From positions 1 through 21,399 of IMG/VR virus record IMGVR_UViG_3300027573_000625: DNA of 21,399 nt. One strand, given 5' to 3'. The DNA comes from a virus. Shown here piece after piece: positions 258 to 18,798 of the stretch. Numbering within the stretch: the first letter of the stretch is position 1; every line of letters begins with the position of its first letter. The notes under the pieces are model-generated. The model did not search any database. It saw only the letters and a program-made list of their open reading frames with translations, and was not told where the DNA came from. The position numbers and the translations under genes were made by a program.

Positions 258-451
258 ATACATTAGAGACACTTACCGAAGATTTAGACAAAGAAAAGGA
301 TTATTGCATTATAGCTATTAGGTTCTTAGAAGGTTGCCCCGGATTAGAGCCTGATAAATATCCAGAACAAAGAATTGAACAATATTTTGATAGACTTAAT
401 GTGTTGGCTATTGAAAGGGCTCGTCGGTTGAAAAATATCTTTGGTTTATGA
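254..451 (+). CDS. Small acidic protein of 65 residues, unknown
   Basis: The start is set at the ATG at 254, which overlaps the previous stop as ATGA; a longer reading from an upstream TTG at 242 is possible but less likely. The product is 65 residues and looks helical, with an acidic N-terminal half (TEDLDKEKD) and a basic C-terminus (IERARRLKN). No catalytic motif, signal peptide or membrane segment is visible and I do not recognise a family. It is translationally coupled to the next gene by another ATGA overlap at 448-451. Its position at the head of a glycosyltransferase operon hints at an accessory or scaffolding role, but nothing in the sequence shows this. Confidence 0.6.
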   Translation: MNTLETLTEDLDKEKDYCIIAIRFLEGCPGLEPDKYPEQRIEQYFDRLNVLAIERARRLKNIFGL

Positions 452-1083
452 TGCACCAGATTTATTACAAGCCTGAACAGAAGACTAAGCTATATCCATT
501 TGCAACACCTTACTATAACGAAGGGCTTACTATCTTCTTCGAGAATAAACCCATTGAAGCCATTGTAAACAGTGCAGACGGCCCAACTATAGCGGTAGCA
601 AGCTGGAAATTATCACAGAAATTAAGAAGACATCAGCCTTTAACTAATGAACGGTTAGAATCTGACTACCAGGTGCTGAGTTTTACCCGGAATTCGTGGC
701 GACACAACATGATGGCGATGTCAAACCAGTGGCATCCTGGATTTATGAAGACAATTACGCTCTTGTGGGAGAAATTAGGGCTAAAAATGCCCGGAGAAGC
801 GAAACAACCTATCTACCAGAACCATTATTCCGCGAAAAGTGACATTTACAAGCGGTATGTTAACGAATTCCTGTCGCCGGCGATGGAATTAATTGAAAAA
901 GACGAAGAATTGCACAGTTTAATGGTTGTACCGTCACGTTATGGGTCATTGTCACGGGAAGCGGACCTGAAAAGTGTAAAAGAGAAGCTAGGCATGACGG
1001 ATTACCCGTTATGCCCTTTCATTTTAGAACGTTGTCCTTCATTGTGGTTCACTATTCACCGGATCCCCGTCACCTACCTATGA
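448..1083 (+). CDS. Unrecognised 211-residue protein of the glycan cassette
   Basis: A soluble-looking protein of 211 residues, rich in Trp, His, Tyr and Pro, with no signal peptide or membrane segment. Segments such as YYNEGLTIFFEN (residues 22-33), VLSFTRNSWRH and PFILERCPSLW near the C-terminus look like conserved blocks. The C-terminal pattern 'basic residues, Pro-Phe-x-LER' recalls the ends of some uncharacterised glycosyltransferase families, but I see no clear DxD motif, so I do not call it a transferase. It is coupled by ATGA overlaps to both neighbours (448-451 and 1080-1083) and directly precedes a glycosyltransferase-like gene. The most reasonable reading is a glycan-pathway protein of unknown activity. 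Confidence 0.75.
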   Translation: MMHQIYYKPEQKTKLYPFATPYYNEGLTIFFENKPIEAIVNSADGPTIAVASWKLSQKLRRHQPLTNERLESDYQVLSFTRNSWRHNMMAMSNQWHPGFMKTITLLWEKLGLKMPGEAKQPIYQNHYSAKSDIYKRYVNEFLSPAMELIEKDEELHSLMVVPSRYGSLSREADLKSVKEKLGMTDYPLCPFILERCPSLWFTIHRIPVTYL

Positions 1084-1715
1084 TTTCATTAATACATCCA
1101 AGCAGGGGAAGACCAGAACAGGCACTAAAGGCTACTCGTGATTGGTCGTTTGCTGCTGGTTCATCGGACTTTGAACACATTTTAAGCCTTGATGATGGTG
1201 ATACGGAATACTATAAGTATATAATGTATTTCGCGCCAAGTGAGATTGTAAAAGGTCCTAACAATTCAGTAGTTGAGGCAACAAATAGAGCTGCTATGGT
1301 TGCTGATGGTGACATTCTAATTTATATGTCAGACGATTTTAAGTGCCCTGAAAACTGGATTGAATTAGTCACTAAGGAATTTGCAAAGTATTCAGGCCCA
1401 ACACTTATAAAGGTTGACGACTGTCTACAAAAGTTTCACGTTCCTGTGCTGACTATCCCAATAATGAACCGTGAGCTTTATAATAAACTCGGATACTTCT
1501 TTCATCCTGACTATAAGTCTATGTTCTGTGATGAACATCTATATTGGAAGACTATGCAGTTAGGGGCCTTGAAGTTTGCACCACATTTGAAATTCGAACA
1601 CTGCCACGTATCAGTAGGCAAAGCCCCGGACGATGAAACCTATCGGAGAAGCGCAGCAAATTGGGAACAAGGAAAGGCGATGTTTGCCAAACATAAACGG
1701 GCGGGATTTCCATGA
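1080..1715 (+). CDS. GT-A type glycosyltransferase-like protein
   Basis: Probable family 2-like glycosyltransferase of 211 residues, transferring a sugar from a nucleotide-sugar donor. It opens with a hydrophobic strand and MISLIHPSRGRPEQ, the usual first strand and turn of GT-A enzymes. LDDGD (37-41) and a likely DxD-type metal site MSDDF (83-87) follow, with hydrophobic IYM before it. There is no membrane segment, so it should be cytosolic. The start at 1080 gives a 4-base ATGA overlap with the upstream gene; an upstream in-frame ATG at 1011 would add 23 residues that overlap the previous gene and do not resemble the family. It is short for GT2, so it may be only the catalytic core. Donor and acceptor cannot be told. 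Confidence 0.75.
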   Translation: MISLIHPSRGRPEQALKATRDWSFAAGSSDFEHILSLDDGDTEYYKYIMYFAPSEIVKGPNNSVVEATNRAAMVADGDILIYMSDDFKCPENWIELVTKEFAKYSGPTLIKVDDCLQKFHVPVLTIPIMNRELYNKLGYFFHPDYKSMFCDEHLYWKTMQLGALKFAPHLKFEHCHVSVGKAPDDETYRRSAANWEQGKAMFAKHKRAGFP

Positions 1716-2293
1716 GTTCACTGGCGATATTGATATGTACTTTACCGGAACGGTTCGAAAAGTTGAAGCGGTTGAAGAACATTTTAGAACCCCAGGTGGA
1801 ACGGTTCAAAGACAGGGTTTCTATTCACTACCATGACGGAGGGAGTTCGCTACCAACAGGCACAAAACGGAATTTACTAATAGAAAACAGTTCCTCCGAT
1901 TACTTCTGCTTTGCCGATGACGATGACTTAGTTTCCGCTTTCTATGTTTCTGAAATAGTTAAAGCAATGGACCAGAACCCGGACGTGATTACTTTCTGTG
2001 GGTACATTACAACGAACGGGGCCAACCGGGTAAACTGGGAGATTAAACTAGGCAATGAATATGTTGAACGGAACGGGATGTACTATCGATGGCCCAACCA
2101 TTTAGCGGTGATGAAACGGGAGCGGGTCAGACACGTAAAGTTTCCGGCTGTATGGCAGATGGAGGACTTTCGATGGTCGGAAGAAATAGCACGGAGGAAA
2201 CTACTAAAAACGGAGGTTCACATTCCGTTGGAATTGTACCACTATGACTGTATTCCAAAAACAAAAAGAGTAAATGAAAGAAGACTTCGATAA
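1712..2293 (+). CDS. Family 2-like glycosyltransferase
   Basis: GT-A type glycosyltransferase of 193 residues. It begins with the N-terminal strand and turn ILICTLPERF (residues 6-15), has a donor-binding-type segment GTKRNLL (50-56), and carries the metal and sugar-nucleotide DxD motif in FADDDDL (67-73). A later ED pair (MEDF) may hold the catalytic base. There is no membrane helix. It is coupled to the gene before it (ATGA at 1712-1715) and its end overlaps the following methyltransferase by 20 bases. It shares layout and motifs with the glycosyltransferase at 2885-3523, so the two look like diverged copies that could add successive sugars. The substrate is unknown. Confidence 0.85.
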   Translation: MSSLAILICTLPERFEKLKRLKNILEPQVERFKDRVSIHYHDGGSSLPTGTKRNLLIENSSSDYFCFADDDDLVSAFYVSEIVKAMDQNPDVITFCGYITTNGANRVNWEIKLGNEYVERNGMYYRWPNHLAVMKRERVRHVKFPAVWQMEDFRWSEEIARRKLLKTEVHIPLELYHYDCIPKTKRVNERRLR

Positions 2294-2888
2294 ATCATTT
2301 TTTCAGACCGCATGGGGGGAGGAAGGGTACTTAGAACCCTTCAGCTACGGAGTCGGTATTGATACCGTGTGTGAGGTTGGGTTAATGCCGTTCCTGTCAC
2401 CACATAAGGACGCTTTGGAAATTGGTCCAGGGGGAGGGACGTTCACACAACGGATGATAGGCCAATTCAATCACTTGACGGTGATGGATGTCATTAGAAA
2501 GCCTAAAGCATTTGATGCCTATGAGAACTTCACCTATATCGAATTATCAGATAAGAACTTTGACTGTCCTGTCGATGCCTATTCAATGGACTTTTGTTTC
2601 AGCTATAATGTCTTCTGCCACTTATCAAATGAGGCTTTAAGTAAGTATTTGAGGGGCATAAACAAAGCATTGAAGTTCGGTGGGGACTTTGTGTTTATGC
2701 TTTCAAACTACCGGCATACCAGTCAGTTCGGTAAAGGGTATTCACTCGGAGACTTCTTACCAATGGGTCATTTTTATCAGGATCTACGGACACTGGATTT
2801 GATTGTTGATTATAATGAATGGGAGGTAATTAATAACAATCTACTCCCAGACCACAGGGATATAGTATGTCACCTACGAAAGATATGA
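2274..2888 (+). CDS. Class I SAM-dependent methyltransferase
   Basis: A 204-residue methyltransferase of the Rossmann-like class. Motif I is EIGPGGG (49-55), with an acidic residue at the end of the next strand (VMDV). A motif IV-like segment follows in FSYNVFCHL and a strand in GGDFVFMLSN. The family moves a methyl group from S-adenosylmethionine; the acceptor here is not shown. Because it lies between two glycosyltransferases and overlaps both, a sugar or glycan acceptor is the natural inference. The ATG at 2274 lies inside the previous gene (20-base overlap). The stop overlaps the next start as ATGA at 2885-2888. Confidence 0.85.
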   Translation: MKEDFDKSFFQTAWGEEGYLEPFSYGVGIDTVCEVGLMPFLSPHKDALEIGPGGGTFTQRMIGQFNHLTVMDVIRKPKAFDAYENFTYIELSDKNFDCPVDAYSMDFCFSYNVFCHLSNEALSKYLRGINKALKFGGDFVFMLSNYRHTSQFGKGYSLGDFLPMGHFYQDLRTLDLIVDYNEWEVINNNLLPDHRDIVCHLRKI

Positions 2889-3523
2889 TAGCTTCTATCC
2901 TCATCCCGACAATGCCTGGAAGATTGGAAAAGTTTACCAATCTGTTCAACGAACTACATCGGCAATTGGCCTATATGCAAACTTTTCACCCAACACTGGG
3001 ACAGATTGAAATAGTAATAGACGATTCAAAACGGTTTTTAGATGGGGGACTTTCTATAGGAAAGAAACGGGAGGCATTAGTACAGCGTGCAGAAGGTAAA
3101 TATTGTTGGTTTCTGGATGACGATGAAACGATAGCGCCGAACTACCTTGAAACATTGGTAAGACTTTGTTGCAGGAATGAAGATGTATGCACATTCCGGG
3201 CCATAGGAAAATTTGATAACTATTGGGCGGTCTATGATATGTCGTTATTTAACACATGGAATGAACCCTCCACACCTGATAAAACAGTAGTTCGCCAGCC
3301 GTGGCATCAGTGTCCGGTTAAGACTGAGTATGCTAAATTATATTCATTTCCTGATACGTCCTATGGAGAGGACTGGGAATGGATGGAGCAAGTCTTAAAG
3401 CATTGCAAGTCAGAAGCCCACACGGACGCTATTTTACTTCAATACAATCACGGAAAACATTCAGAAGCAGATAAAATAACTAACCATGTACAGTCAGAAT
3501 CAGGAGGAGAAACACATTCTTGA
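2885..3523 (+). CDS. Family 2-like glycosyltransferase
   Basis: GT-A type glycosyltransferase of 212 residues. The first strand and turn are ILIPTMPGR (5-13). A GLSIGKKREAL segment (55-65) is in the place of the donor-binding strand, and the DxD metal motif is FLDDDE (76-81). The pattern EDWEWMEQ later in the protein may include the catalytic acid. An in-frame ATG at 2867 exists, but the ATG at 2885 gives the 4-base ATGA overlap used throughout this operon and places the conserved strand at the N-terminus, so I chose it. The end overlaps the following methyltransferase by 38 bases. It resembles the 1712-2293 product in motif order and spacing, suggesting gene duplication. Confidence 0.85.
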   Translation: MIASILIPTMPGRLEKFTNLFNELHRQLAYMQTFHPTLGQIEIVIDDSKRFLDGGLSIGKKREALVQRAEGKYCWFLDDDETIAPNYLETLVRLCCRNEDVCTFRAIGKFDNYWAVYDMSLFNTWNEPSTPDKTVVRQPWHQCPVKTEYAKLYSFPDTSYGEDWEWMEQVLKHCKSEAHTDAILLQYNHGKHSEADKITNHVQSESGGETHS

Positions 3524-4091
3524 ATACTTCGGATATCATGTAGGTACCTTCATCGATGTAGGTTGCAATGATTGCGAAACGTTCTCCAATACCAGGGCTT
3601 TGGCGCTCAGGGGATGGAAAGGGATACTATTGGATTGCAGTCCAACGGCTATTGATCGCTGTAAGAAACTATACAACGGACACAAGGGCATTTATATTTA
3701 CGACTATGCGATTTCATCTCACAATGGCAAAGCGATTCTACAGGAATCCGGGCCGTTATGTACTCCTTCCGATATTGGGTTGGTTAGTACTTTCCATCAA
3801 CACGAGAAGGCCAGATTTGATAGGAAGGTTAAATATGAACCTATTGAAGTTAAAACGTTCAAATGGAAGACCGCATTGAATAGGTGGAAGATAAAAGAGT
3901 TTGACTGCATTTCTTTAGACGTTGAAGGGGATGAGCTTAACATTCTACCAGATATGGACCTATCCAAAACTAGATTAATCTGTATTGAGTGGAACGGGAA
4001 ACCTGAACTAAAGGAAGCCTATGAGAAATATTTATCAGGTTTCAGTATAATTTATACGTCAGCCGAAAACATCGTTTATGCCAGAATTTGA
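3486..4091 (+). CDS. FkbM-family methyltransferase
   Basis: A 201-residue SAM-dependent methyltransferase of the FkbM type. The SAM-binding loop is FIDVGCNDCETFSNT (22-36). An acidic residue ending strand 2 is seen in LLDCSP, and the family's signature second motif is SLDVEGDE (143-150), followed by a typical IEWNG strand. FkbM enzymes commonly O-methylate hydroxyls of sugars or polyketides. In a glycosyltransferase operon, sugar O-methylation is the likely job, although the acceptor is not shown. The start lies 38 bases inside the preceding gene and the end overlaps the next gene by 14 bases. There is no signal peptide, so it should work in the cytosol. Confidence 0.88.
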   Translation: MYSQNQEEKHILEYFGYHVGTFIDVGCNDCETFSNTRALALRGWKGILLDCSPTAIDRCKKLYNGHKGIYIYDYAISSHNGKAILQESGPLCTPSDIGLVSTFHQHEKARFDRKVKYEPIEVKTFKWKTALNRWKIKEFDCISLDVEGDELNILPDMDLSKTRLICIEWNGKPELKEAYEKYLSGFSIIYTSAENIVYARI

Positions 4092-4656
4092 CATTAGTCT
4101 TTATGACGAGGACTTCTTCGAATGGCACGTAACACATGCTAGAAAGTATTCTATACGCACGATGGACTGGTACATTATTAATTACCATCCTAAAAGCGTT
4201 ATAGACTTTGGATGTGGGATAGGTAGCTATTTAGAATGCGCTTACGACTATGATATTAAGATTAAAGGCTATGAGATTTCGTGGGAAGCAGTCAGCCACA
4301 CCCCAGAACGCATACGGCCATACATTGAATACAGGGACTGCACCGAGCCAATAAACGCGGGGATATTCGATACGGTTATTTCTTTTGAAACCGCGGAACA
4401 CATTGAACCGGAAGGGACTAACCAATTCATTTTGAACCTTGTAAACGCTACCGGTAAAACGTTACTATTCACAGCAGCCCCTTTAGGGCAGGGGGGAACA
4501 GGGCACATCAACTGCCGGCCTAAAGAGTTCTGGATAATGGAGTTAAGTGACCTCCTGATTTACAATGACGTTTTAACCGGGGAGATATCAGAGGCATGGG
4601 AGAAACTTGGAGCCCCGTGGTATATCGTTAAAAATCTAATGGTGTTCAGCCGATGA
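4078..4656 (+). CDS. Class I SAM-dependent methyltransferase
   Basis: A 192-residue methyltransferase. Motif I is DFGCGIGSY (43-51), a conserved acidic residue follows in GYEIS (64-68), and motif IV-like FETAEHIEPE (103-112) includes the EH pair common in this superfamily. The C-terminal block APLGQGGTGHINCRP resembles a loop found in small methyltransferases that sit in glycosyltransferase clusters. Acceptor unknown; glycan or sugar is inferred from context. It is the third methyltransferase in the operon and differs clearly from the other two, so each may act at a different position. It overlaps the preceding gene by 14 bases and the following one by 4 (ATGA at 4653-4656). Confidence 0.85.
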   Translation: MPEFDISLYDEDFFEWHVTHARKYSIRTMDWYIINYHPKSVIDFGCGIGSYLECAYDYDIKIKGYEISWEAVSHTPERIRPYIEYRDCTEPINAGIFDTVISFETAEHIEPEGTNQFILNLVNATGKTLLFTAAPLGQGGTGHINCRPKEFWIMELSDLLIYNDVLTGEISEAWEKLGAPWYIVKNLMVFSR

Positions 4657-5282
4657 TAATTGTCAACTTCTCCACAAAAGGCTACGGGATGTTGCAACGC
4701 AGACTGCGTCATTCGTTAGCGGGTCACAGAAGTATAATGTTCAGCAACTATGGGCAGATTGATAGCCCAACACAACAGGAAAGCCCCTATCAGTTTAAGA
4801 TACATTCCATAGAAAGGGCATTTCTTCAGGATGATATCGTTTTATGGTGTGATTCATCACTGTTTCTGGTTGGAAACCTACATATCATCGACAATCTTAT
4901 AAAACAGGATGGCTATTTTATGGAGGAGGCGGGGCATTGGGTAGGGTCATGGACAAATGAGTTTACAAAGGATTATTTTAAGATGACAGAGGAAGAACTC
5001 GCGGTCCCTGGGGGGATATTCATGTTTACCGCTGGGTGCTTGGGATTGAACAGACAGAATCAGACAGCTATGGAATGGTTCAGACAGTGGAAGGAGGCGG
5101 CGCTTGCGGGATGCTTTAAAGGTCATTGGCACGATCACCGACACGACATGACCTGTGGTTCGATAATAGCCCAACGGCTGGGAATGAAGTACCAACGGGG
5201 AGGTAAGTACCTTGCTTATGTGGGGCCAGACTACCCCAAACCGGAGCCGGGTGTTGTATTTAAGTTAAAAGGATACTTATGA
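4653..5282 (+). CDS. Probable GT-A type glycosyltransferase
   Basis: A 209-residue protein with the layout of a GT-A glycosyltransferase. YQFKIHSIERA (46-56) resembles the helix that precedes the donor site, and DIVLWCDSSLFL (61-72) has the hydrophobic strand and an Asp-x-x acidic turn in the place of the DxD motif. A Trp- and His-rich segment, GHWHDHRHD, may form the acceptor side. The canonical DxD is reduced to CDSS, so metal use may differ; this lowers confidence in the catalytic call but not in the gene. It is coupled at both ends by ATGA overlaps. Substrates cannot be told. Confidence 0.7.
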   Translation: MIIVNFSTKGYGMLQRRLRHSLAGHRSIMFSNYGQIDSPTQQESPYQFKIHSIERAFLQDDIVLWCDSSLFLVGNLHIIDNLIKQDGYFMEEAGHWVGSWTNEFTKDYFKMTEEELAVPGGIFMFTAGCLGLNRQNQTAMEWFRQWKEAALAGCFKGHWHDHRHDMTCGSIIAQRLGMKYQRGGKYLAYVGPDYPKPEPGVVFKLKGYL

Positions 5283-5473
5283 GAATTCTACTGGCGTGGT
5301 GGTTCTGGTTTACCAACAGAAACGATGAAGTCGCCAGACAGCGACTAAAAATATGTTCTACGTGTGAAAAAATGAAATGGGGGATATGCAAAGTTTGTGG
5401 CTGTCCATTGCAAACTAAAGCGAGATTGTTAGATGAAATATGTCCGCATCCGGATGGAAACAAGTGGAATTAA
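5279..5473 (+). CDS. Small Cys-rich zinc-ribbon-like protein
   Basis: A 64-residue protein whose middle carries C26-x2-C29, then C37-x2-C40-x-C42 and C55, a pattern suited to binding zinc. Short proteins with this 'ICSTC ... CKVCGCP ... CP' layout recur in tailed phages, but I know no established function. The N-terminus is hydrophobic and aromatic (LLAWWFWF), perhaps a membrane-touching or hydrophobic contact face. It is the last gene of the cassette, coupled to the previous one by ATGA at 5279-5282. Its stop codon ends at the first stem base of the terminator at 5473. Confidence 0.7.
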   Translation: MRILLAWWFWFTNRNDEVARQRLKICSTCEKMKWGICKVCGCPLQTKARLLDEICPHPDGNKWN

Positions 5474-5510
5474 AAGGGGGCCAATCGCCAACAAGCCCCC
5501 TTTAATATTT
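5473..5510 (+). terminator. Strong Rho-independent terminator closing the glycan cassette
   Basis: A 9-base-pair stem (AAAGGGGGC at 5473-5481 with GCCCCCTTT at 5495-5503), a 13-base loop, and a T-rich tail through 5511. It begins at the last gene's stop codon, so it should end the transcript started at the promoter at 51-80. Confidence 0.85.
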
Positions 5511-5522
5511 TCGCCGGACTTA

Positions 5523-5550
5523 TTGGTTTTACCGACGCGAAGTAAATATA
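5523..5550 (+). promoter_or_regulatory. Possible promoter for the 5571 gene
   Basis: TTG at 5523-5525, a 17-base spacer, then TAAATATA at 5543-5550, which matches TAnnTTTG at only part of its fixed positions. The preceding terminator means the next gene needs its own promoter, which is the main support. Weak by sequence alone. Confidence 0.3.
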
Positions 5551-5570
5551 ACAATTTAAATGCCATTTAA

Positions 5571-6323
5571 GTGAAGTTATGCGCTATTTACAACGTATGG
5601 GCCGATTGGGATATTTTAGAATATTCGCTTAAAAACATAGAGCCGCTTGTCGACGGAGTCATTATAGTCGGCTCCACTAAGAGCAACTTTGGGGAATATT
5701 ATCCAATACCTGAGAATTTCCGCGACAGGGTAGCCATACGTGAACCACAGTTTAAAACAGCCCGCGAAAGTGAGACAGACAAGCGTAATTTCGGATTAGA
5801 CTTAGCACGGTGGGCAGGGTTCACCCACTTCCTAACTATCGACGCTGACGAATTCTACGACCCTGAAAAATTCATCTTAGCTAAAAAATTAGTTGACGAC
5901 ACTGGACTTATTGGGCTGGTTTGTACCTGTACCACTTACTTTAAAAGCCCTACTTTAACGATTGGATTGGATGTGACGCTGGTTCCCTTCATACACGAAC
6001 TTACCCCGACTATTAAACACACCTTCAACAGAAACTATCCCTATGCGTGGAACGGGACTCAGATTCGGATAGACCCTACCCGGAGTTTGAATATTGATGA
6101 TGGGGTATTTATGGTTGATATTACCATGCATCACATGTCATGGGTACGAGCAGACATCAAACGTAAAATCAGGAACTCCACGGCAAAAGCGAATTTAGAT
6201 CGATCTACCATATTGGAAGATTTGGCCAATGCAAAGCCGGGTTACTACTGTCGTTTTTACCAAAAGACACTGATAGAATGTGAAAACCGGTTTAATATTA
6301 AGTTAGACGAAAGCCAATCCTAA
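5571..6323 (+). CDS. Glycosyltransferase with a DADEF metal motif
   Basis: A 250-residue cytosolic glycosyltransferase-like protein. It starts with the strand KLCAIYNVWADWDILEYSL (residues 2-20), a layout seen in family 2 and family 92-like enzymes. It has a motif FLTIDADEF (87-95) containing the DxD metal site, and a later HHMSW segment (187-191) in the region where such enzymes bind the acceptor. The GTG start is forced, because the codon just upstream is an in-frame TAA and the conserved strand begins immediately. It lies outside the main cassette, after its terminator, so it may be regulated separately. Its 3' end overlaps the convergent HNH gene by 21 bases. The donor sugar is unknown. 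Confidence 0.85.
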   Translation: MKLCAIYNVWADWDILEYSLKNIEPLVDGVIIVGSTKSNFGEYYPIPENFRDRVAIREPQFKTARESETDKRNFGLDLARWAGFTHFLTIDADEFYDPEKFILAKKLVDDTGLIGLVCTCTTYFKSPTLTIGLDVTLVPFIHELTPTIKHTFNRNYPYAWNGTQIRIDPTRSLNIDDGVFMVDITMHHMSWVRADIKRKIRNSTAKANLDRSTILEDLANAKPGYYCRFYQKTLIECENRFNIKLDESQS

Positions 6324-6833: not shown

Positions 6834-8465
6834 GTGGCAGAACTGAAATATCCCGGAGGTATGGACGTAAAGAAAATCACTGAGCCTTTATACAAGATTT
6901 ATAACTTCGTAGTAAGGGAATTTGCCTACACTCAACAGGTAGAAATGTCCGGTCAATATCTCCCCTTCGGGCCGGATGATATGTTCCCCAATAAATTAGC
7001 TGCCTTAGTTCAAGGTTCACCCACCGCGACCGCGTGTTTATCTACAATGGTAGACTTTGTGACGGGGGAGGGATTTAACAAAGGCATAGGACTTGAAAAT
7101 CTTGTTATTAACAATCAAGGCTTAAAGTTATTTCGATATCACTCCATACAATCGGATTCATTGGTCCATAACTGGGGTGTTGCTTCCATAGTGAAGTACA
7201 ACCAGGCGGGGGAGATTACCCAGATATTTGATATTCCTTTTGCTTACTGCCGACTAGGGAAACCTGATGACAGAGGTATAATTTCTAAGATACTTTACAA
7301 TCCCTATTTCGGGACGGGGCTTTACAACAGAGCGCAGACGGTAGAATATGACGTCTACAATCCAACCGCGGCCACCGTTCAGATGGGACTGGATAAGAAA
7401 TGGAAAGGACAGATAAATTGGCTTGGCATTAAAGACCAGAAACATCCGTTTTACCCTATACCTGACTATTATTCTGCTTCCCACTGGATGAATGTAGAGA
7501 AGAACGCGGCCGTTTACTTCGATACAAACTTAGAGAACGGGTTCCTTCAGTCTATGGTCCTTAAAATGGTGGGCGACCCTAACGACGTTTCCGGCAAGAA
7601 GGATGGCAACGATGAGGATATTACCAAAGGGAAGTTACTGGATGAAATGTTAACCCACGACTTTTCAGGTCCAAAGCGGGCGCATAAGATAATGACCCTG
7701 TGGGGAAACAACAAAGAAGAATGGCCCGAGCTTGCAGCTTTCCCTACAAATGCGAATTCAGATTTATATCGCGTCCAGGATGAACAGGCCACCCGGAAGA
7801 TAAGCATAGCTACCAAAGTCCCCGCTATTCTAGCCAATGTAAACGACGCTAATAACTTCGGGGGGGAGCAGATTCGCCCAGCGGTGAAATTAATGCAGCA
7901 ACGCGCCAAACGGCCACAGGATTTGTTGATAGACTATTACTCGGATATGTTGAAACGGTTCATTAATCCTGTCACCGTTCCGATAAAAATAGTCCCTTAT
8001 AACCCGTTCCCAGAATTAGAGAGCATAGATCCGCAAGTGTGGGGCGTAATGACGCTGGAAGAACAACGGAAATGGACACAAGACCACACAGAAATAGAAT
8101 TAACGCTTACTACCCCTCAAACACCGGCTGCACCTGTCGAAAACAGGTTTGTGAACCTACATTTTGACTCTTATCCGGCGGGAGCGAAGGCAAATGCTAA
8201 ACGGGCGGTAGAATGGGAGGAAAAAATGCAAACTTTCTGTCAACCGAAGAAGGGAAGGATGTTGACAGACCAGATTTTGAACGGAATTCCACTGGGACCG
8301 AAGGAAATCAAGCGTTTATCACGGTATTTAAGTAAAAATACTATACACAAAGACAAACCTTATGGCGAAAGCTGCGAGGCGGTGATGTATGACGCGTGGG
8401 GAGGGTCTGAAATGATGGTTTGGGCTAACGAAAAAGTAAAAGAGTTAAATGGCAAAGCTGATTAA
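6834..8465 (+). CDS. Phage portal protein with an extra C-terminal helical domain
   Basis: A 543-residue protein called as the portal, the ring at the capsid vertex through which DNA passes. The early block LPFGPDDMFPNKLAALVQ and the following TACLSTMVDFVTGEGF are typical of Bacteroidota phage portals, as is the later stretch ISIATKVPAILANVNDANN. Residues 444-537 form a separable unit (FDSYPAGAKANAKRAVEW ... MYDAWGGSEMMVWANEKV). It resembles a helical module with the pattern 'YP..A..NAKRA ... WGG ... WA' that occurs in other phage head proteins. The GTG at 6834 is the longest start; an in-frame ATG at 6861 sits directly behind GGAGGT, too close for normal use. The end overlaps the next gene by 17 bases. 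The family call comes from motif memory, not a search. Confidence 0.75.
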   Translation: MAELKYPGGMDVKKITEPLYKIYNFVVREFAYTQQVEMSGQYLPFGPDDMFPNKLAALVQGSPTATACLSTMVDFVTGEGFNKGIGLENLVINNQGLKLFRYHSIQSDSLVHNWGVASIVKYNQAGEITQIFDIPFAYCRLGKPDDRGIISKILYNPYFGTGLYNRAQTVEYDVYNPTAATVQMGLDKKWKGQINWLGIKDQKHPFYPIPDYYSASHWMNVEKNAAVYFDTNLENGFLQSMVLKMVGDPNDVSGKKDGNDEDITKGKLLDEMLTHDFSGPKRAHKIMTLWGNNKEEWPELAAFPTNANSDLYRVQDEQATRKISIATKVPAILANVNDANNFGGEQIRPAVKLMQQRAKRPQDLLIDYYSDMLKRFINPVTVPIKIVPYNPFPELESIDPQVWGVMTLEEQRKWTQDHTEIELTLTTPQTPAAPVENRFVNLHFDSYPAGAKANAKRAVEWEEKMQTFCQPKKGRMLTDQILNGIPLGPKEIKRLSRYLSKNTIHKDKPYGESCEAVMYDAWGGSEMMVWANEKVKELNGKAD

Positions 8466-10719: not shown

Positions 10720-13338
10720 ATGAATAACGATATCATTGAATATAGCATACCATCTTTTAAAGAACTTTCTAAAAAGTGGGAAGCGCCAAGAATCAGGATT
10801 AAAAAGCTACTTCCTGATCTGACTATTTATCCATCACGATGGACCTATTTAGTCTCAAACGAGAAACGACCGCACACAATTACGTTAGAAGAGTTCAGGA
10901 AGAAGAAACTCAAAGCCGGAGATAAAGTTTATTTTGAGCGTGGACAGATTTACAATTGGGCTGAATACGATGTAATTACAGACGATAACACATTCGGTTC
11001 GTTTGGCTCTGGCGCTGATCCTATATTTTACGGATCTGATTCATACATCGCAGCAACATGGACATCTGAAACCGGAGGATATTATTCGACCCCGCTTGCT
11101 ACTGCTCCATTATGGGTTGCAATTAACGGTGAATGCGCAAGGCAAGGGGAGACGGATTGGATTCCGACAATTACGAATTCAACTTCGAATACTATTGCCG
11201 GTGCTCCGGCAACATTGAATGCTTTTAATTCTGTGATGTTGTTGGCTAATAATACCAAGCTAAGGATGAAAGAGTTTTTTTTCAGACTTTCTTATGAGCA
11301 TTTAGTTACGGGATATAACACAGGGACCGGTTTAATGAATATTGGAGCCGGTGGTGTTGTGGGAGGTGTGCAGGGAATGCCTTTTAAACTATACGGGCAA
11401 AAGCAATTTGCAACCTTGGAGGGTGATTGGTGGTATGATGATCCAAATAATAAACTGTGGATTAAAACGGTAGCAACTCCATCGGGAACAGACATTCGGG
11501 TAATAACAGAAAATTATGCTTTTAAAGTTAACGGGGCAAGTAACGCAACCTTTGAAAATATAGACTTCACACAGTATTATAACACAGCGATCGACGCACC
11601 GGATGCGCCAAACATCACAGTTAATAACGTAGATGTACACGACAACCGTACAAACGCGTTCATGTTCTACGGTAATAATACAACGTTTACGTTATCAAAT
11701 TTTGCACTTGAGCGAATAGGACTTAATGCAATTCACATCGGGGCTGTTTCTGGTGGTTCAATAACTGACGGTACAATTGAACATACGGGCAAACAGGATA
11801 ATATAGGATGGCCTCATGATACCTATTGGATTAAAACTGGTGGTGTCCCTATCTGTTGTTTCTGGGATTCCGGGGAGTCTGTAACGCAACCTGATAACGT
11901 AGATATTGACTCTGTTGTAATGTCCAATGCAGGATATATAGGAGTACTTTTTATTGGGGATAACCACAGTGCAACAGAATGTATAGTCCATGACTTTTGT
12001 GAAAAGTGGAACGATGGCGGGGGATTCTACACAATTCACAGAAACACGTTAGGCACATCAACTAAGAATATAACATTTACGAGATGTCATGCTTATAATG
12101 GCATTGGCTCTATAGAGGGCATAACACCTGATGCGCTACTATTTAGCCATGCAGAAGGTTTTTATATTGACAACGGTAGTGAGTTAGTAACTATAGACGA
12201 GTGTGTAGCTTATAACAATTCGGAATTTGGAATACTGTGCAACTGGGATACTCAGAAAACGACTATTACAGACTGTATTGTTTATGGCAATTTAAATTCA
12301 GGGGTGTGCTTCAGAGAGGATACAGCTGGGGGGTCTTCTCCCGTATTTCCAAATAATGATGGCAATATATTCACAGGTAATATTATTACTGCGTCTGATT
12401 TAAATTACTGCGTTGAAATCATTAGCTTCAATGGTAGCACTACTTATAACCCTTTCTCTGATTCTGGTGATTCGGATAATAATAAATATGTAAGACCGTA
12501 CGGAAGCTCTGTAAATGCTTCACGGTCTACCCAGCTAGGAACCCAAACGCCGTATGCCATTGCAGCATGGCGTACCCGTATTGCTGATGACGCGTCTAGT
12601 ACGGAGCGTTATGAGTCAACCTATAGGTATAAAAATCCTCTTAAAACCAGGGCTGAGGAAGTCAGGATAGCAACCAATGAAACATCCTCTACGACAACAT
12701 TCAACGGTACAGGTTACCACAGCATAACAGGATCAGCACTTGGAAGCAGTGAAAATATTGCAGCGTTTAGTGCTGTTGTTTATTTGGTTGATACGTGGCC
12801 GGTTCCAGATTATTTATTCGATGATTTTGTAGCTGCAAACGGAACAGCTATCGCAGGACGTACCCCGCCAGTAGGGCCTATCCCCGTAATTGACGCGGGA
12901 ACACATACGATACAATCTCAAGAAATGGTGTCCAGTGTTGGTGGGGTTGTTAATTGGGATATAGCTCAATCAAATTTCGATTTTACTGTAAGAACAAGGT
13001 GTACAACTACACTAGCGGGGTCTGGTAGTGGACTTGGAACATATTTCAGGCGTGTGAATGATAACAACAGAATGGTTATCAGTTTTTCGACTACATCGAT
13101 AACGTTATATGAGTTTAATAACAGTGCATCTGTTACAAATACCTGGGTAGTTTCCCGGACGTTTGGTAACAATGACACTTATTTCATTTCGGTTCGTGCA
13201 AACGGTACGAGCGTTAAAATATGGGTAAATAATATTTTACAGATTGACATCACAACATCTTACACGACAGCTGGGAAGGTCGGTATATTAGGCGCGACAG
13301 GTAGGGCTACGGATTATGTTTTAGCAGAATCATTATGA
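10720..13338 (+). CDS. Large beta-helix tailspike with C-terminal jelly-roll domain
   Basis: An 872-residue probable tailspike or receptor-binding protein. Residues 1-55 form a charged adaptor. A beta-helix cap follows with the pattern LKAGDKVYFERG, and then many Asn- and Asp-rich turns spaced through about residues 270-600, as in right-handed parallel beta-helices of the pectate-lyase superfold (ATFENIDFTQYYNTAI, PNITVNNVDVHDNRTNAF). From about 695 to the end comes a concanavalin/laminin-G-like jelly roll, with FDDF near its start, SVKIWVNN in the middle and GILGATGRA near the end. Phage proteins with this plan bind or cleave host surface polysaccharide, but I see no catalytic residues I can name. 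No signal peptide. The end overlaps the next gene by 4 bases. Confidence 0.75.
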   Translation: MNNDIIEYSIPSFKELSKKWEAPRIRIKKLLPDLTIYPSRWTYLVSNEKRPHTITLEEFRKKKLKAGDKVYFERGQIYNWAEYDVITDDNTFGSFGSGADPIFYGSDSYIAATWTSETGGYYSTPLATAPLWVAINGECARQGETDWIPTITNSTSNTIAGAPATLNAFNSVMLLANNTKLRMKEFFFRLSYEHLVTGYNTGTGLMNIGAGGVVGGVQGMPFKLYGQKQFATLEGDWWYDDPNNKLWIKTVATPSGTDIRVITENYAFKVNGASNATFENIDFTQYYNTAIDAPDAPNITVNNVDVHDNRTNAFMFYGNNTTFTLSNFALERIGLNAIHIGAVSGGSITDGTIEHTGKQDNIGWPHDTYWIKTGGVPICCFWDSGESVTQPDNVDIDSVVMSNAGYIGVLFIGDNHSATECIVHDFCEKWNDGGGFYTIHRNTLGTSTKNITFTRCHAYNGIGSIEGITPDALLFSHAEGFYIDNGSELVTIDECVAYNNSEFGILCNWDTQKTTITDCIVYGNLNSGVCFREDTAGGSSPVFPNNDGNIFTGNIITASDLNYCVEIISFNGSTTYNPFSDSGDSDNNKYVRPYGSSVNASRSTQLGTQTPYAIAAWRTRIADDASSTERYESTYRYKNPLKTRAEEVRIATNETSSTTTFNGTGYHSITGSALGSSENIAAFSAVVYLVDTWPVPDYLFDDFVAANGTAIAGRTPPVGPIPVIDAGTHTIQSQEMVSSVGGVVNWDIAQSNFDFTVRTRCTTTLAGSGSGLGTYFRRVNDNNRMVISFSTTSITLYEFNNSASVTNTWVVSRTFGNNDTYFISVRANGTSVKIWVNNILQIDITTSYTTAGKVGILGATGRATDYVLAESL

Positions 13339-15233
13339 GGTGGATAGTTAAAAAGATAATGAGATTGATTTATAAAATATATAGAGGATGGCATACACCA
13401 AAATATTATATAAAAATACTTCTATTTATTTTGTTATCGTTGCCATGCATAGCACAGGACTCACTACACATCGAAGAGCTTGGGGTATACGTGAAGACCA
13501 CTGAAACGCCTCCACCGATCCCAGTGGATTCTTTCCTGACCATTGATAATGCAACCAAAGGTATTCAAGGATATCAGCACAACTACACAGGTAACTGGAG
13601 TGAAGGAACAAGCGCCAACTGGTATGCTACCACGCTTACCTATACCGCCAATGGCGCTGTGACCTTCCGTTTCAATGGAACAAAGATCGAGTGGTACACC
13701 GAGAAAGGACCGACTCATGGTAAAGCGGCGGTTTCAATTGACGGAGGATCAGAAACTATCATCGACCTGTATGCCGCCGCATTTGCTCAGAAAGTGAAAG
13801 TGTTTGAGCGTGTTACCACGCAGGATATTCACACCATAAAATTACGCTCTACCGGCACGAAGAATCCAGCGAGTAGCAACACGTACTTGCTAACGGACTT
13901 CTTCAAAATCAAAGACCCGGGGTTCGTCCCTGATACTGTCCCCCCCATTCCTCCGCCAGTCACCGGAGATATTATTGTATCGCCCGGACAAAGTATCAAG
14001 GCTGCTGTAGAATCAGCGACATCCGGCAAAGTCGTAAGTCTGCTGGAAGGAACCTACAACGAGAATCTGATAAACGTTCCTGTCGGAGTATCAATTGTTG
14101 GCGCTGGTAAACTGAAGACTATTATCAACTTCACCGGAAGTATGCCACAACAATCCGAAACAGCGATGTTTCAACTTAAAGGAGGATCACTGGTACGTAT
14201 TATGCCGATGACTATGGGTGTTACTGGCATCATGCTACTGGTTCTATTATGGTTGATAGCCAACTACGGACCGTGGACATCGCGGGTCAAATTAATAGTA
14301 ACAGCAGTTATCGTAGTCATCATAATCGGAATTATTATCTACATCCTGAGTCCTCAACCTTCACAACACGCCGCAGGGAATCAAACCATATCCGGCTTCA
14401 CCATCAATGGTAAGTTCCAGTGTAACGGTGGGATCATGGTAGATGGTCGCGACAACGTCAAGATTCTGGACGTCAAAGTTCAGGAGACAACCTATTTCGG
14501 TGTATGGCTGAAGAACACCGCCAACAGTGAGTTTGCCAATAGTGACCTGTTCAACTCTAGTTGGGCTTCTGTTGGATGGGTCACGGGCGAACTCTGTGTA
14601 CACAACATCACTAACACTATGATCCACCATAACTTCTTTAAGACTACACGCAATGATAAAGGATATGGCATTAAAGGTCTTTGGCCGGATGGAACGGTAA
14701 CTAATTCAAAGTTCTATAATAACAAGTTTGAGCTAACGCACTTTAGTTTATGGAACAATGGGTCAGCGCCAAACATCGACATCGAATTACACAATACTTT
14801 CTATAACGGTATTGAAATCTACGAGAATGACTTTTCAGTGATGGGCTTATCATTAGCATCGCATAGACCAACTAAAGGCGGCAGGACCATTGTACGCAAC
14901 AATCGTTTTGTATGGTGTTCAACCGCTCACATTGAACTGGTCTGCTCAAACATAACCATTGGCCCGGGTAACGTGTTCTCAGGCGCGCCGATGCTGACAG
15001 CGAATTTTCAGCCTAATGGAAAGTGGACGGACATTATCGTAACCGGTAACACCTTCACCAGCAACGGCGCTAATCCAAGCTGGGGAGGAACGCATTTAAT
15101 AGGGGCGAATGGGATGGACATGACCATTACTAACAACGTCTACAATAATTTGGGGGGGTATACCTTTGTCAAGCACATGGGAGCGCCTGCGAATAGTGTG
15201 GTAGTGGACACAGGAAACACCAAGAACCAATGA
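13335..15233 (+). CDS. Secreted-type beta-helix protein interrupted by a membrane hairpin
   Basis: A 632-residue mosaic. Residues 1-41 are a basic N-region and hydrophobic stretch ending ...LPCIAQ, like a Sec signal peptide. Residues about 70-192 form a jelly-roll domain that is also present in the next gene (shared KIEW, HG, DGG and TGTKNPAS elements). A Pro-rich linker (194-210) leads to a parallel beta-helix starting IIVSPGQSIKAAVESA. At 286-343 a 58-residue insert carries two membrane segments (about 295-309 and 318-338). The beta-helix then continues to the end with Asn-rich turns. The insert is in frame and bounded by TCAC repeats. Start at 13335 by ATGA overlap; M9 at 13359 is an alternative. 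A signal peptide is unusual for a virion protein, so it may be exported by the host during infection. Confidence 0.75.
   Translation: MRWIVKKIMRLIYKIYRGWHTPKYYIKILLFILLSLPCIAQDSLHIEELGVYVKTTETPPPIPVDSFLTIDNATKGIQGYQHNYTGNWSEGTSANWYATTLTYTANGAVTFRFNGTKIEWYTEKGPTHGKAAVSIDGGSETIIDLYAAAFAQKVKVFERVTTQDIHTIKLRSTGTKNPASSNTYLLTDFFKIKDPGFVPDTVPPIPPPVTGDIIVSPGQSIKAAVESATSGKVVSLLEGTYNENLINVPVGVSIVGAGKLKTIINFTGSMPQQSETAMFQLKGGSLVRIMPMTMGVTGIMLLVLLWLIANYGPWTSRVKLIVTAVIVVIIIGIIIYILSPQPSQHAAGNQTISGFTINGKFQCNGGIMVDGRDNVKILDVKVQETTYFGVWLKNTANSEFANSDLFNSSWASVGWVTGELCVHNITNTMIHHNFFKTTRNDKGYGIKGLWPDGTVTNSKFYNNKFELTHFSLWNNGSAPNIDIELHNTFYNGIEIYENDFSVMGLSLASHRPTKGGRTIVRNNRFVWCSTAHIELVCSNITIGPGNVFSGAPMLTANFQPNGKWTDIIVTGNTFTSNGANPSWGGTHLIGANGMDMTITNNVYNNLGGYTFVKHMGAPANSVVVDTGNTKNQ
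14187..14364 (+). other. In-frame two-helix membrane insert in a beta-helix gene
   Basis: A 174-base (58-codon) segment interrupts the beta-helix coding sequence. TCAC occurs at both edges (14187-14190 and 14361-14364), and removing one copy with the insert restores a seamless frame (Gly-Gly-Ser-Gln-His). The encoded peptide has two hydrophobic helices joined by a turn with W306, L307, Y311, P313 and K319. The same residues at the same spacing occur in the lone membrane protein at 18613-18798 (W18, L19, Y23, P25, K31). The four-base repeat could be chance. Confidence 0.6.
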
Positions 15234-15931
15234 AAACACTTCTATTACTTTTCGGAGTTCTTGTCGGACTGCCAGCTTTGGCTCAGACATACAAGATTGG
15301 CGAAATCACCAAATTATGGACGCCAAAGCACATTCAGGTAACTGATGGCTTAACATTCAAGTATAAACTTTATAACGGCTTGGATACGGCCTATCGGTAT
15401 ACCATTGGTGCTAATTCTGATACATTCGACGTGACAATCACCTTTAAGCAACGATTGCCACCAGCTAAGCCTGACGTTGTTACTATAATCGACGACTACC
15501 CAACAGCCCCAGCACAAACTTATCTCCCAGCCACACGCCTAGCTGATAACGTCTACAGCACAAACGCATGGGCGCACATGAAAGGTCAAACGTGGAACGC
15601 GCTTCACTATGAAAACACCGTATCGTTTGTGGAAGGGATACCGGTAGGTGCTTACGTTGAATTGACTTGCACTTGCTATAAGGTTGAATGGTGGGGGGAA
15701 AGACGAAACAATCATGGAATAGTTTCAATTACCACAGACGGCGGATCGATAGCGAACGTGGATACATACGGAACTAATTCAGACAACCCTTCAACATTGC
15801 TGTGGCAAAGTGCATCAGCACCAGTTAATGGTACGCATAAATTCCGAGTAACTTATACAGGAACAAAAAATCCGGCGTCAACTTCATTTAGCATTGTTCA
15901 CGACAAATGGGTTATTTACACTAAGCAATAA
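15230..15931 (+). CDS. Signal-peptide protein with a carbohydrate-binding-like jelly roll
   Basis: A 233-residue protein with a textbook Sec signal peptide (MKTLLLLFGVLVGLPALA, cleavage before Gln-19). An N-terminal beta region (about 20-75) is followed by a Pro-rich linker. A jelly-roll domain (about 120-230) shares with the upstream protein the elements KVEWW, HG, DGG, the VD/ID-x-Y strand, a G/D-x-H-x-(F/I)-(R/K) strand and TGTKNPAS. Similar beta-sandwich domains bind glycans. It is coupled to the upstream gene by ATGA at 15230-15233, and its last base is shared with the next gene (TAATG). It would be exported to the periplasm or cell surface of the host, or may mature on the virion; function is not shown. 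Confidence 0.7.
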   Translation: MKTLLLLFGVLVGLPALAQTYKIGEITKLWTPKHIQVTDGLTFKYKLYNGLDTAYRYTIGANSDTFDVTITFKQRLPPAKPDVVTIIDDYPTAPAQTYLPATRLADNVYSTNAWAHMKGQTWNALHYENTVSFVEGIPVGAYVELTCTCYKVEWWGERRNNHGIVSITTDGGSIANVDTYGTNSDNPSTLLWQSASAPVNGTHKFRVTYTGTKNPASTSFSIVHDKWVIYTKQ

Positions 15932-16346: not shown

Positions 16347-16881
16347 CGTTGTGTTAACCGAACATATTACCCCGGTAATTGAACGGCTGGACCCTTTTTT
16401 TAAGGCGGCCAATTTAACGGCCTACGTGACCTCAGGGCTACGCAGACCAGAGGACCAGTTACGTATCATCCGAAATGAATTAAACCGCCGGGGGCTATCT
16501 GGAGACTTCCAGCAGGGCTTTGACGACATCGGCGACAGGATTCAGTATGAAGGACAGGAAGTATACGCATGGCAGCCGGCGTGGAGTAAGTTACTTTCTG
16601 TTGGTTTTGTTGTTAACCCTCCATATCCGGCTGTCGCTTTAATGGACTATTTCAGACCTGGGAGTCAGGAGAACCGAAAGGGAAAGATGATAGGGGACAG
16701 CCCCCATATCAGGGGGACAGCTTTCGATATTGGGGGAGGCAAAGACGGGATTACCAATGAAGCCCAGGTAATAGAAAAGGCTATGGGGAAGGTGAAAGGG
16801 CTGAAAGGGTATTTGATTGAAAGAAATAATAATGCGATCCATGTAGACTGTCAGCCGATTGACATGGAAGACTTCAAATGA
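16321..16881 (+). CDS. Endolysin: M15-type zinc peptidase
   Basis: A 186-residue probable endolysin cutting peptide bonds of peptidoglycan. The N-terminal half has VTSGLRRPEDQ (36-46), the usual strand and helix of M15 peptidases. The zinc-binding pair is HIRGTAFD (H129 and D136), and the second site is IHVD (H174). In M15 enzymes an acid usually sits three residues before the last His. Here that position is Asn, so the catalytic base may be elsewhere, for example E167. There is no signal peptide, so a holin would be needed for release. It overlaps the next gene by 4 bases (16878-16881), and that gene looks like a spanin, which supports the lysis role. Confidence 0.75.
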   Translation: MKFLLVKDSVVLTEHITPVIERLDPFFKAANLTAYVTSGLRRPEDQLRIIRNELNRRGLSGDFQQGFDDIGDRIQYEGQEVYAWQPAWSKLLSVGFVVNPPYPAVALMDYFRPGSQENRKGKMIGDSPHIRGTAFDIGGGKDGITNEAQVIEKAMGKVKGLKGYLIERNNNAIHVDCQPIDMEDFK

Positions 16882-17114
16882 AAGTGCTTGTTATACTGCT
16901 GTTGATGTCCTGTTCAACGATGCGACAACGGACGGTGGTGGTCTCAGTATATGATTATCCTATGCAGTTAGATTCAGTGAAGATCCCTGCGGATTCGGTG
17001 GTACACTACCGTCAGGAAATACGAAAGCAGGAGAACAAAAAGAACTTCTGGAAGGGTGCTACCATTACTCTATTCTTGTTCATCCTGCTGGAGATATTTG
17101 TTAATACGAACTAA
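16878..17114 (+). CDS. Candidate unimolecular spanin (lipoprotein with C-terminal membrane helix)
   Basis: A 78-residue protein. Residues 1-11 are a short hydrophobic signal and LLMSC gives a lipobox with Cys-12, so the mature N-terminus would be lipid-anchored in the outer membrane. A periplasmic stretch (about 13-57) is charged towards the end. A hydrophobic segment at about 59-75 (ATITLFLFILLEIFV) lies near the C-terminus and would span the inner membrane. This two-membrane layout in one small protein is that of u-spanins such as T1 gp11, which fuse the two membranes at the last step of lysis. It directly follows the endolysin and overlaps it by 4 bases. No sequence family is claimed. It converges with the minus-strand gene, overlapping by 4 bases. 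Confidence 0.7.
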   Translation: MKVLVILLLMSCSTMRQRTVVVSVYDYPMQLDSVKIPADSVVHYRQEIRKQENKKNFWKGATITLFLFILLEIFVNTN

Positions 17115-18612: not shown

Positions 18613-18798
18613 ATGAGCCTACTTGTAATCATCCTGGTTATCGTCTTCGCAGGCCTGATTCTGTGGCTGGTGGAGAAATATATTCCAATGGACCCCGGAC
18701 TTAAAACACTGTTACGGGTGGTGGTGATAGCTATTGTCATCTGGATATTACTTCGTGAATTAGGAGTGCTGCACTATCTTTCAACTGTTAAGATTTAG
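18613..18798 (+). CDS. Small two-helix membrane protein of the Thivi_2564 type
   Basis: A 61-residue membrane protein with two hydrophobic helices (about 3-20 and 33-48) around a conserved turn KYIPMDPGLK (22-31). This resembles the small Thivi_2564-type membrane proteins found across bacteria and phages, whose function I do not know to be established. It is the only plus-strand gene between two minus-strand runs and has its own promoter-like element. Since no other holin candidate sits beside the endolysin, it could fill that role, but this is an inference from size and topology. The same turn residues appear in the insert in the 13335-15233 protein. Confidence 0.65.
   Translation: MSLLVIILVIVFAGLILWLVEKYIPMDPGLKTLLRVVVIAIVIWILLRELGVLHYLSTVKI

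Follow-up and report, generated by a model that had tools for sequence, protein, structure and literature searches.

What is a membrane hairpin doing in the middle of a phage beta-helix protein, and how did it come to be there? The question is raised by IMG/VR record IMGVR_UViG_3300027573_000625, which was analysed over its whole length of 21,399 bases and is referred to here as the window. The original prediction placed two membrane segments inside a beta-helix encoded in this DNA and offered three explanations for them: a small membrane gene that had inserted as a moron-like element, a genuine domain serving as the anchor of a secreted beta-helix, or an assembly chimera. The portal protein of the window (6834-8465) has matches in Bacteroides, Cellulophaga and Tenacibaculum phages, and the DNA therefore belongs to a tailed phage with a Bacteroidota-type host. 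The gene studied here belongs to the late region, downstream of the structural genes, and adjoins a second beta-helix protein (10720-13338). On the 5' side of the portal gene (448-6323) stands a long series of open reading frames whose translations, as read, resemble glycosyltransferases and methyltransferases, an odd cargo for a tailed phage.

Results

The hairpin lies between two turns of a predicted beta-helix

An AlphaFold2 model of the whole protein (features in Table 1) has modest confidence, with a mean pLDDT of 63.5, and contains the strands of a parallel beta-helix, predicted with good confidence, at residues 211-280 and 346-400. When the model was searched with Foldseek, the best matches were beta-helices (E 2e-10), among them GH87 glucanase, AlgE4 epimerase, PL6 lyases and the HK620, LKA1 and phi297 tailspikes. 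The Pfam family PF13229 (Beta_helix) matches residues 348-499 with an E-value of 2.3e-5 and 24.5 bits, slightly below its gathering cut-off of 25.9, and the homologue in related record L019 passes this cut-off (35.0 bits, E 1.3e-8); a weak match to TIGR03805 (beta-helix start) covers residues 221-271. As modelled, the C-terminal part of the protein is a right-handed beta-helix. Its N-terminal domain is matched by the tail protein family PHROG 15881 at residues 102-185 (E 4.8e-6), weakly by CE2_N, and also by Streptomyces and Arthrobacter plasmid sequences, one of them under the name beta-galactosidase; the plasmid matches are confined to this domain. A glycan role may be guessed from the modelled fold, and no catalytic site was identified in the beta-helix protein.

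Table 1. Positions in the window of the beta-helix gene, its parts and the separate two-helix gene.
Feature	Position	Strand	Basis
Beta-helix protein, 632 aa: signal peptide, CBM-like domain, membrane hairpin, beta-helix	13335..15233	+	Open frame, Pfam, AlphaFold2, Foldseek
N-terminal hydrophobic signal peptide with long charged n-region	13335..13454	+	Hydropathy; predicted cleavage between PCIA and QDS, residue 40/41
CBM-like / tail-protein-like jelly-roll domain, residues ~70-192	13542..13910	+	PHROG 15881, weak CE2_N, plasmid matches
First beta-helix turns, preceding hairpin	13971..14186	+	Model strands 213-282, pLDDT mostly 80-93
Extra segment of 61 codons, holds membrane hairpin	14187..14369	+	Alignment with insert-less L014 and L005
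TCAC, 5' copy, judged chance	14187..14190	+	Random-placement test, relatives
Membrane helix 1, residues 292-311	14208..14267	+	AlphaFold2, hydropathy
Membrane helix 2, residues 316-338	14280..14348	+	AlphaFold2, hydropathy
TCAC, 3' copy, judged chance	14361..14364	+	Random-placement test, relatives
Main beta-helix, 3' of hairpin, residues 346-632	14370..15230	+	AlphaFold2; 60% identity with insert-less L014
Separate two-helix gene, Thivi_2564-family membrane protein	18613..18798	+	NF041949, 48.6 bits against cut-off 33

The two membrane segments originally predicted are upheld by a frame that is open throughout and by the agreement of hydropathy with the model, in which both helices sit between beta strands 279-282 and 346-358. 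The Kyte-Doolittle values of the hydrophobic stretches are 2.07 (residues 289-307) and 3.38 (residues 320-338), and the number of helices is even by either approach. The short loop between them contains R and K and therefore fits the positive-inside rule; the hairpin flanks carry about one positive charge each, and the bias is weak. Aligned with two relatives that lack the insert, the window reads KGG, 61 residues and AAGNQT, where L014 has KGG-IT-GNQT and L005 has DGG-L-NQT. The extra segment thus comprises about 61 codons instead of the 174 bases, or exactly 58 codons, first proposed, and the expectation that its excision joins the beta-helix cleanly is borne out by these homologues, which do so at the same point.

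The fold is common to right-handed parallel beta-helix proteins (PF13229; PL6, AlgE4, GH87 and the HK620/LKA1 tailspikes), and the position of the gene in the tail region is a further likeness to phage tailspikes. The window protein differs from the named tailspikes and lyases in its membrane hairpin between turns, a feature that we know of in none of them. Other open reading frames of at least 180 residues in the window, five related loci and two Bacteroides phages contain no internal hairpin, and a literature search found no precedent for such a membrane hairpin in a beta-helix. With its membrane hairpin, conserved and selected, this phage beta-helix is a new variation on a known fold.

Several other functions of the segment were considered and rejected. 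Translational bypass of the insert would be pointless, as it is in frame and without stops. An internal start was discarded because the SD-like run (AAAGGAGG, followed by ATG at 14202) encodes KGG and lies 16 bases from the ATG; this run is not kept in L002 (AAAGGGGG), L003 (AAAGGCGG) or L019 (AAAGGTGG). An RNA element was likewise dismissed, there being no stable fold in common and no Rfam match.

The hairpin is conserved in some relatives and absent from others

Six records besides the window carry the gene (L002, L003, L004, L019, L014 and L005), and rescans with broader patterns gave the identical set. No relatives of the gene were found in GTDB genome contigs, and GenBank phages gave no match at the protein level for the whole gene, for the insert or for the homologue in L005, and just chance-level Gordonia matches for the C-terminal part of the protein. 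The hairpin is at the identical place in L002, L003 and L004, which come from other assemblies and show 91-92% identity; L003 and L004, themselves from two assemblies, differ at 11 of 17,782 bases. Within the insert dN/dS is 0.06-0.11, while dS (0.84-1.35) falls within the range of the flanks, and synonymous divergence amounts to about one change per site in the whole gene and the insert alike. A low dN/dS together with a flank-like dS indicates that the segment is old and selected as protein; on these sequence comparisons, the hairpin is under purifying selection and is not a recent insertion. Helix 1 is nearly invariant among the window-type hairpins, and helix 2 varies among I, V and L.

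Two local features of synonymous divergence were also observed. All three pairwise comparisons give 0.30-0.35 over helix 1 (codons 285-316, 14187-14282), where the gene as a whole has about 0.6 and helix 2 has 0.71-0.82; no RNA fold or Rfam family explaining this dip was found. At codons 491-550 the synonymous differences between L002 and the window drop to 0-0.19, against 0.32-0.68 for the window-L003 pair, which suggests recent recombination between the L002 and window phages.

In the L019 homologue, which is 64% identical to the window protein overall, an equally long hairpin occupies the same site; identity is 63-74% in the flanks and falls to 23% in the hairpin, so that the two-helix character is preserved where the sequence is not. 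A profile of the window-type hairpin gave no match to the L019 hairpin, and shuffles weakly support a common origin of the two (1-5%). Two histories would account for this: very rapid divergence of the L019 hairpin, constrained by nothing but hydrophobicity, or a refilling of the site. It is conceivable, though we think it doubtful, that a tight turn of the beta-helix is a slot that was filled more than once by unrelated hairpins, in the window clade and in L019, each with a signal peptide.

L014 and L005 have no hairpin, and GGITGN and GGLN, respectively, bridge the same strands. Both share the beta-helix, with 60% identity over the C-terminal part for L014:3052-4692 and 34% for L005:1831-3063. 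The L014 model, which is well predicted in this region, connects strands 254-259 and 266-274 through a short turn; the hairpin can therefore be regarded as a lengthened loop that the rod could accommodate without being disturbed. The possibility that all homologues contain the hairpin as a normal part of the fold receives a mixed answer, as it is present in four lineages and absent in two. The tree of the six homologues does not firmly resolve the order of L019 and L014, and for this reason one gain versus losses was judged by similarity and not by a supported tree.

Hairpin and predicted signal peptide occur together

Signal peptides and topology were called from hydropathy and motif rules, using a rule-based scan and reading. 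The proteins of the window, L002, L003/L004 and L019 start with a predicted Sec-type signal peptide (MKILLLLLLPFFAFA ahead of QDS, for instance) with Gln at the +1 position. In the homologues n-, h- and c-regions are seen, with a cut between A and Q or between G and Q, and the signal peptide is plainer than in the window (FFAFA/QDS in L002, LSLLA/QDS in L003, AHIIG/QDT in L019). From these features we infer that the beta-helix protein is very likely exported. The L014 and L005 proteins start without a signal peptide. Four lineages accordingly have both signal peptide and hairpin and two have neither; because there are just four and two lineages, such a link would arise by chance about 1 time in 15. 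A signal peptide is unusual in a late gene of a tailed phage. In the target proteins of phage DGRs, the lack of signal peptides and membrane regions has been read as supporting a phage origin (PMC6199706).

Several neighbouring genes were noted. L014 and L005 encode a separate CBM-like protein with a signal peptide (L014:6826-7527, L005:979-1824), the counterpart of a second, probably exported protein in the window (15230-15931); this gene adjoins or is close to the beta-helix gene in several of the related phages. A conserved two-helix gene of 64-71 residues (MELLxTLLIYI..., L002:7512-7727, L014:2858-3052, L019:2440-2646), possibly a holin, directly flanks the beta-helix gene, preceding it in some phages and following it in others. 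Farther downstream in the window (16878-17114), a small protein with a lipobox (LLMSC/LLSAC) and a C-terminal membrane helix is a candidate one-piece spanin (u-spanin), with counterparts at L002:11733-11969, L003:11862-12098 and L019:2643-2894. It adjoins an M15-like peptidase in the window and in L002, and no family match to it was found.

Flanking repeats and resemblance to a separate membrane gene

The TCAC copies to which the original prediction drew attention are present on both sides of the insert, but as a repeat they are at chance level: at least one in-frame 4-mer in common is found in 54% of random placements with the same geometry in the same gene. Nor are they conserved, the pair reading TCAC/TCCC in L002 and TCTC/TCTC in L003 and being absent in L019. 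A target-site duplication left by a mobile element was rejected on both grounds, and no copies of such an element were found elsewhere in IMG/VR, the phage collection or the related records. Rickettsia palindromic elements are in-frame protein-coding insertions, and the window insert resembles them in lengthening, without loss of frame, a protein that is conserved in its remaining parts; it is unlike them in having no repeated copies in these contigs and in being selected at the protein level.

The separate gene at 18613 is a member of the Thivi_2564 family (NF041949), to which its L003 homologue scores 56.9 bits. Like the hairpin, members have two hydrophobic helices and a short polar loop. 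The motif W-L-x3-Y-x-P-x5-K, reported as shared, does occur in both peptides but is not kept in the gene's own L003 homologue (YLINKHVPMDEPYK). The hairpin segment falls outside the family, scoring 16.5 bits alone and 14.2 bits in the whole protein, about half the cut-off of 33, and the hairpins of relatives score 13.5-15.6 bits; another two-helix gene of L002 reaches 17.1-18.3 bits, and the window insert is no better. The hairpin further differs from the members here by lacking the loop PMD and the LLRExGV tail, and in being embedded, whereas the member is a free gene. A kinship between the two was set aside as unproven, with 13-17 bits against the family cut-off.

Discussion

The extra segment probably serves an exported phage protein as its own membrane anchor. 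This corresponds to the explanation of a real domain anchoring a secreted beta-helix, which is supported by the conserved hairpin, purifying selection and the co-occurring signal peptide. The Sec signal peptide would direct the protein into the periplasm of the infected cell, where helix 1 of the hairpin would stop transfer, the short loop containing R and K would remain cytoplasmic, and helix 2 would lead the chain back out to form an out-in-out hairpin. A single internal helix would put the parts of the beta-helix on opposite sides of the membrane; with two helices both stay periplasmic. The two crossings would thereby bring the main beta-helix to the same side as the turns that precede the hairpin, where together they could fold as one rod; the hairpin would loop out of this rod at a single tight turn that joins consecutive strands. 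During infection the product would hold a CBM-like domain and a beta-helix of the polysaccharide-processing type at the periplasmic side of the inner membrane. There it would most likely bind or process glycans of the envelope, either when infection ends or to counter a second phage. The comparisons establish where the hairpin lies, that it is conserved and selected, that two homologues have an empty site and that hairpin and signal peptide go together; export, the out-in-out topology, residence in the inner membrane, glycan role and absence from the virion are what we infer from these features.

The main rival to this model is a virion protein of the tail spike or ejection type, whose hydrophobic N-terminus and hairpin would stay covered in the particle until, upon infection, they enter the membrane of the new host. 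Its late-region position downstream of the structural genes, the adjoining beta-helix protein, the N-terminal match to PHROG 15881 and the tailspikes among the Foldseek matches are what one would expect of such a protein, but four lineages have a classical signal peptide, which would take the protein away from the cytoplasm where tailed phages assemble, and it is the insert-less homologues without a signal peptide that resemble ordinary tail-region proteins. We therefore regard a virion protein as unlikely. A lysis function, in which a holin-like or holin-regulating membrane protein has the beta-helix as its periplasmic part, would suit the small two-helix genes that neighbour the beta-helix genes of L002, L014 and L019 and the M15-like peptidase and candidate spanin downstream; yet these three phages retain the two-helix genes as well, no holin family match was found, and an exported protein of 630 residues is unlike known holins, which makes this function very improbable.

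The remaining alternatives concern the origin of the segment. Capture of a small membrane gene (for example, of the Thivi_2564 family) through in-frame, moron-like insertion followed by retention is possible, though in our judgement improbable. L014 and L005 display the empty state that capture presupposes, and the window insert scores 63 against the Thivi_2564 gene, a value reached by 0.5% of segment-wise shuffles (38.6 +- 6.7), which replaced a null from E. coli hairpins that was too easy by composition. The match to the L003 Thivi_2564 gene, however, is at noise (23% of shuffles), the NF041949 scores do not exceed that of another two-helix gene in L002, and the TCAC copies are chance. A search for the hairpin peptide as a free gene, by which the idea was to be checked, found none in IMG/VR or the phage collection, and with kinship below the cut-off the moron-like element is not sustained. 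An assembly or binning chimera, for which nothing speaks beyond the oddity of the arrangement, is refuted: the same joints occur in three other contigs (L002, L003 and L004) at about one synonymous change per site, and a fourth (L019) has a different hairpin at the same site.

It is uncommon for a rigid repeat fold to have a membrane hairpin looping out from one of its turns, and both hairpin states persist in related phages, along with the presence or absence of the export signal. Should the tight turn have been filled repeatedly, a phage tail-type protein would on each occasion have become anchored in the envelope of the infected cell, by gaining an export signal at one end and, within its rigid fold, an even number of membrane crossings. 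If the topology proposed for the anchored protein holds, the window offers a natural case of a virion-type beta-helix turned into an anchored host-envelope protein, and it would point to phage proteins that act on the inner membrane of the infected cell, at its outer face.
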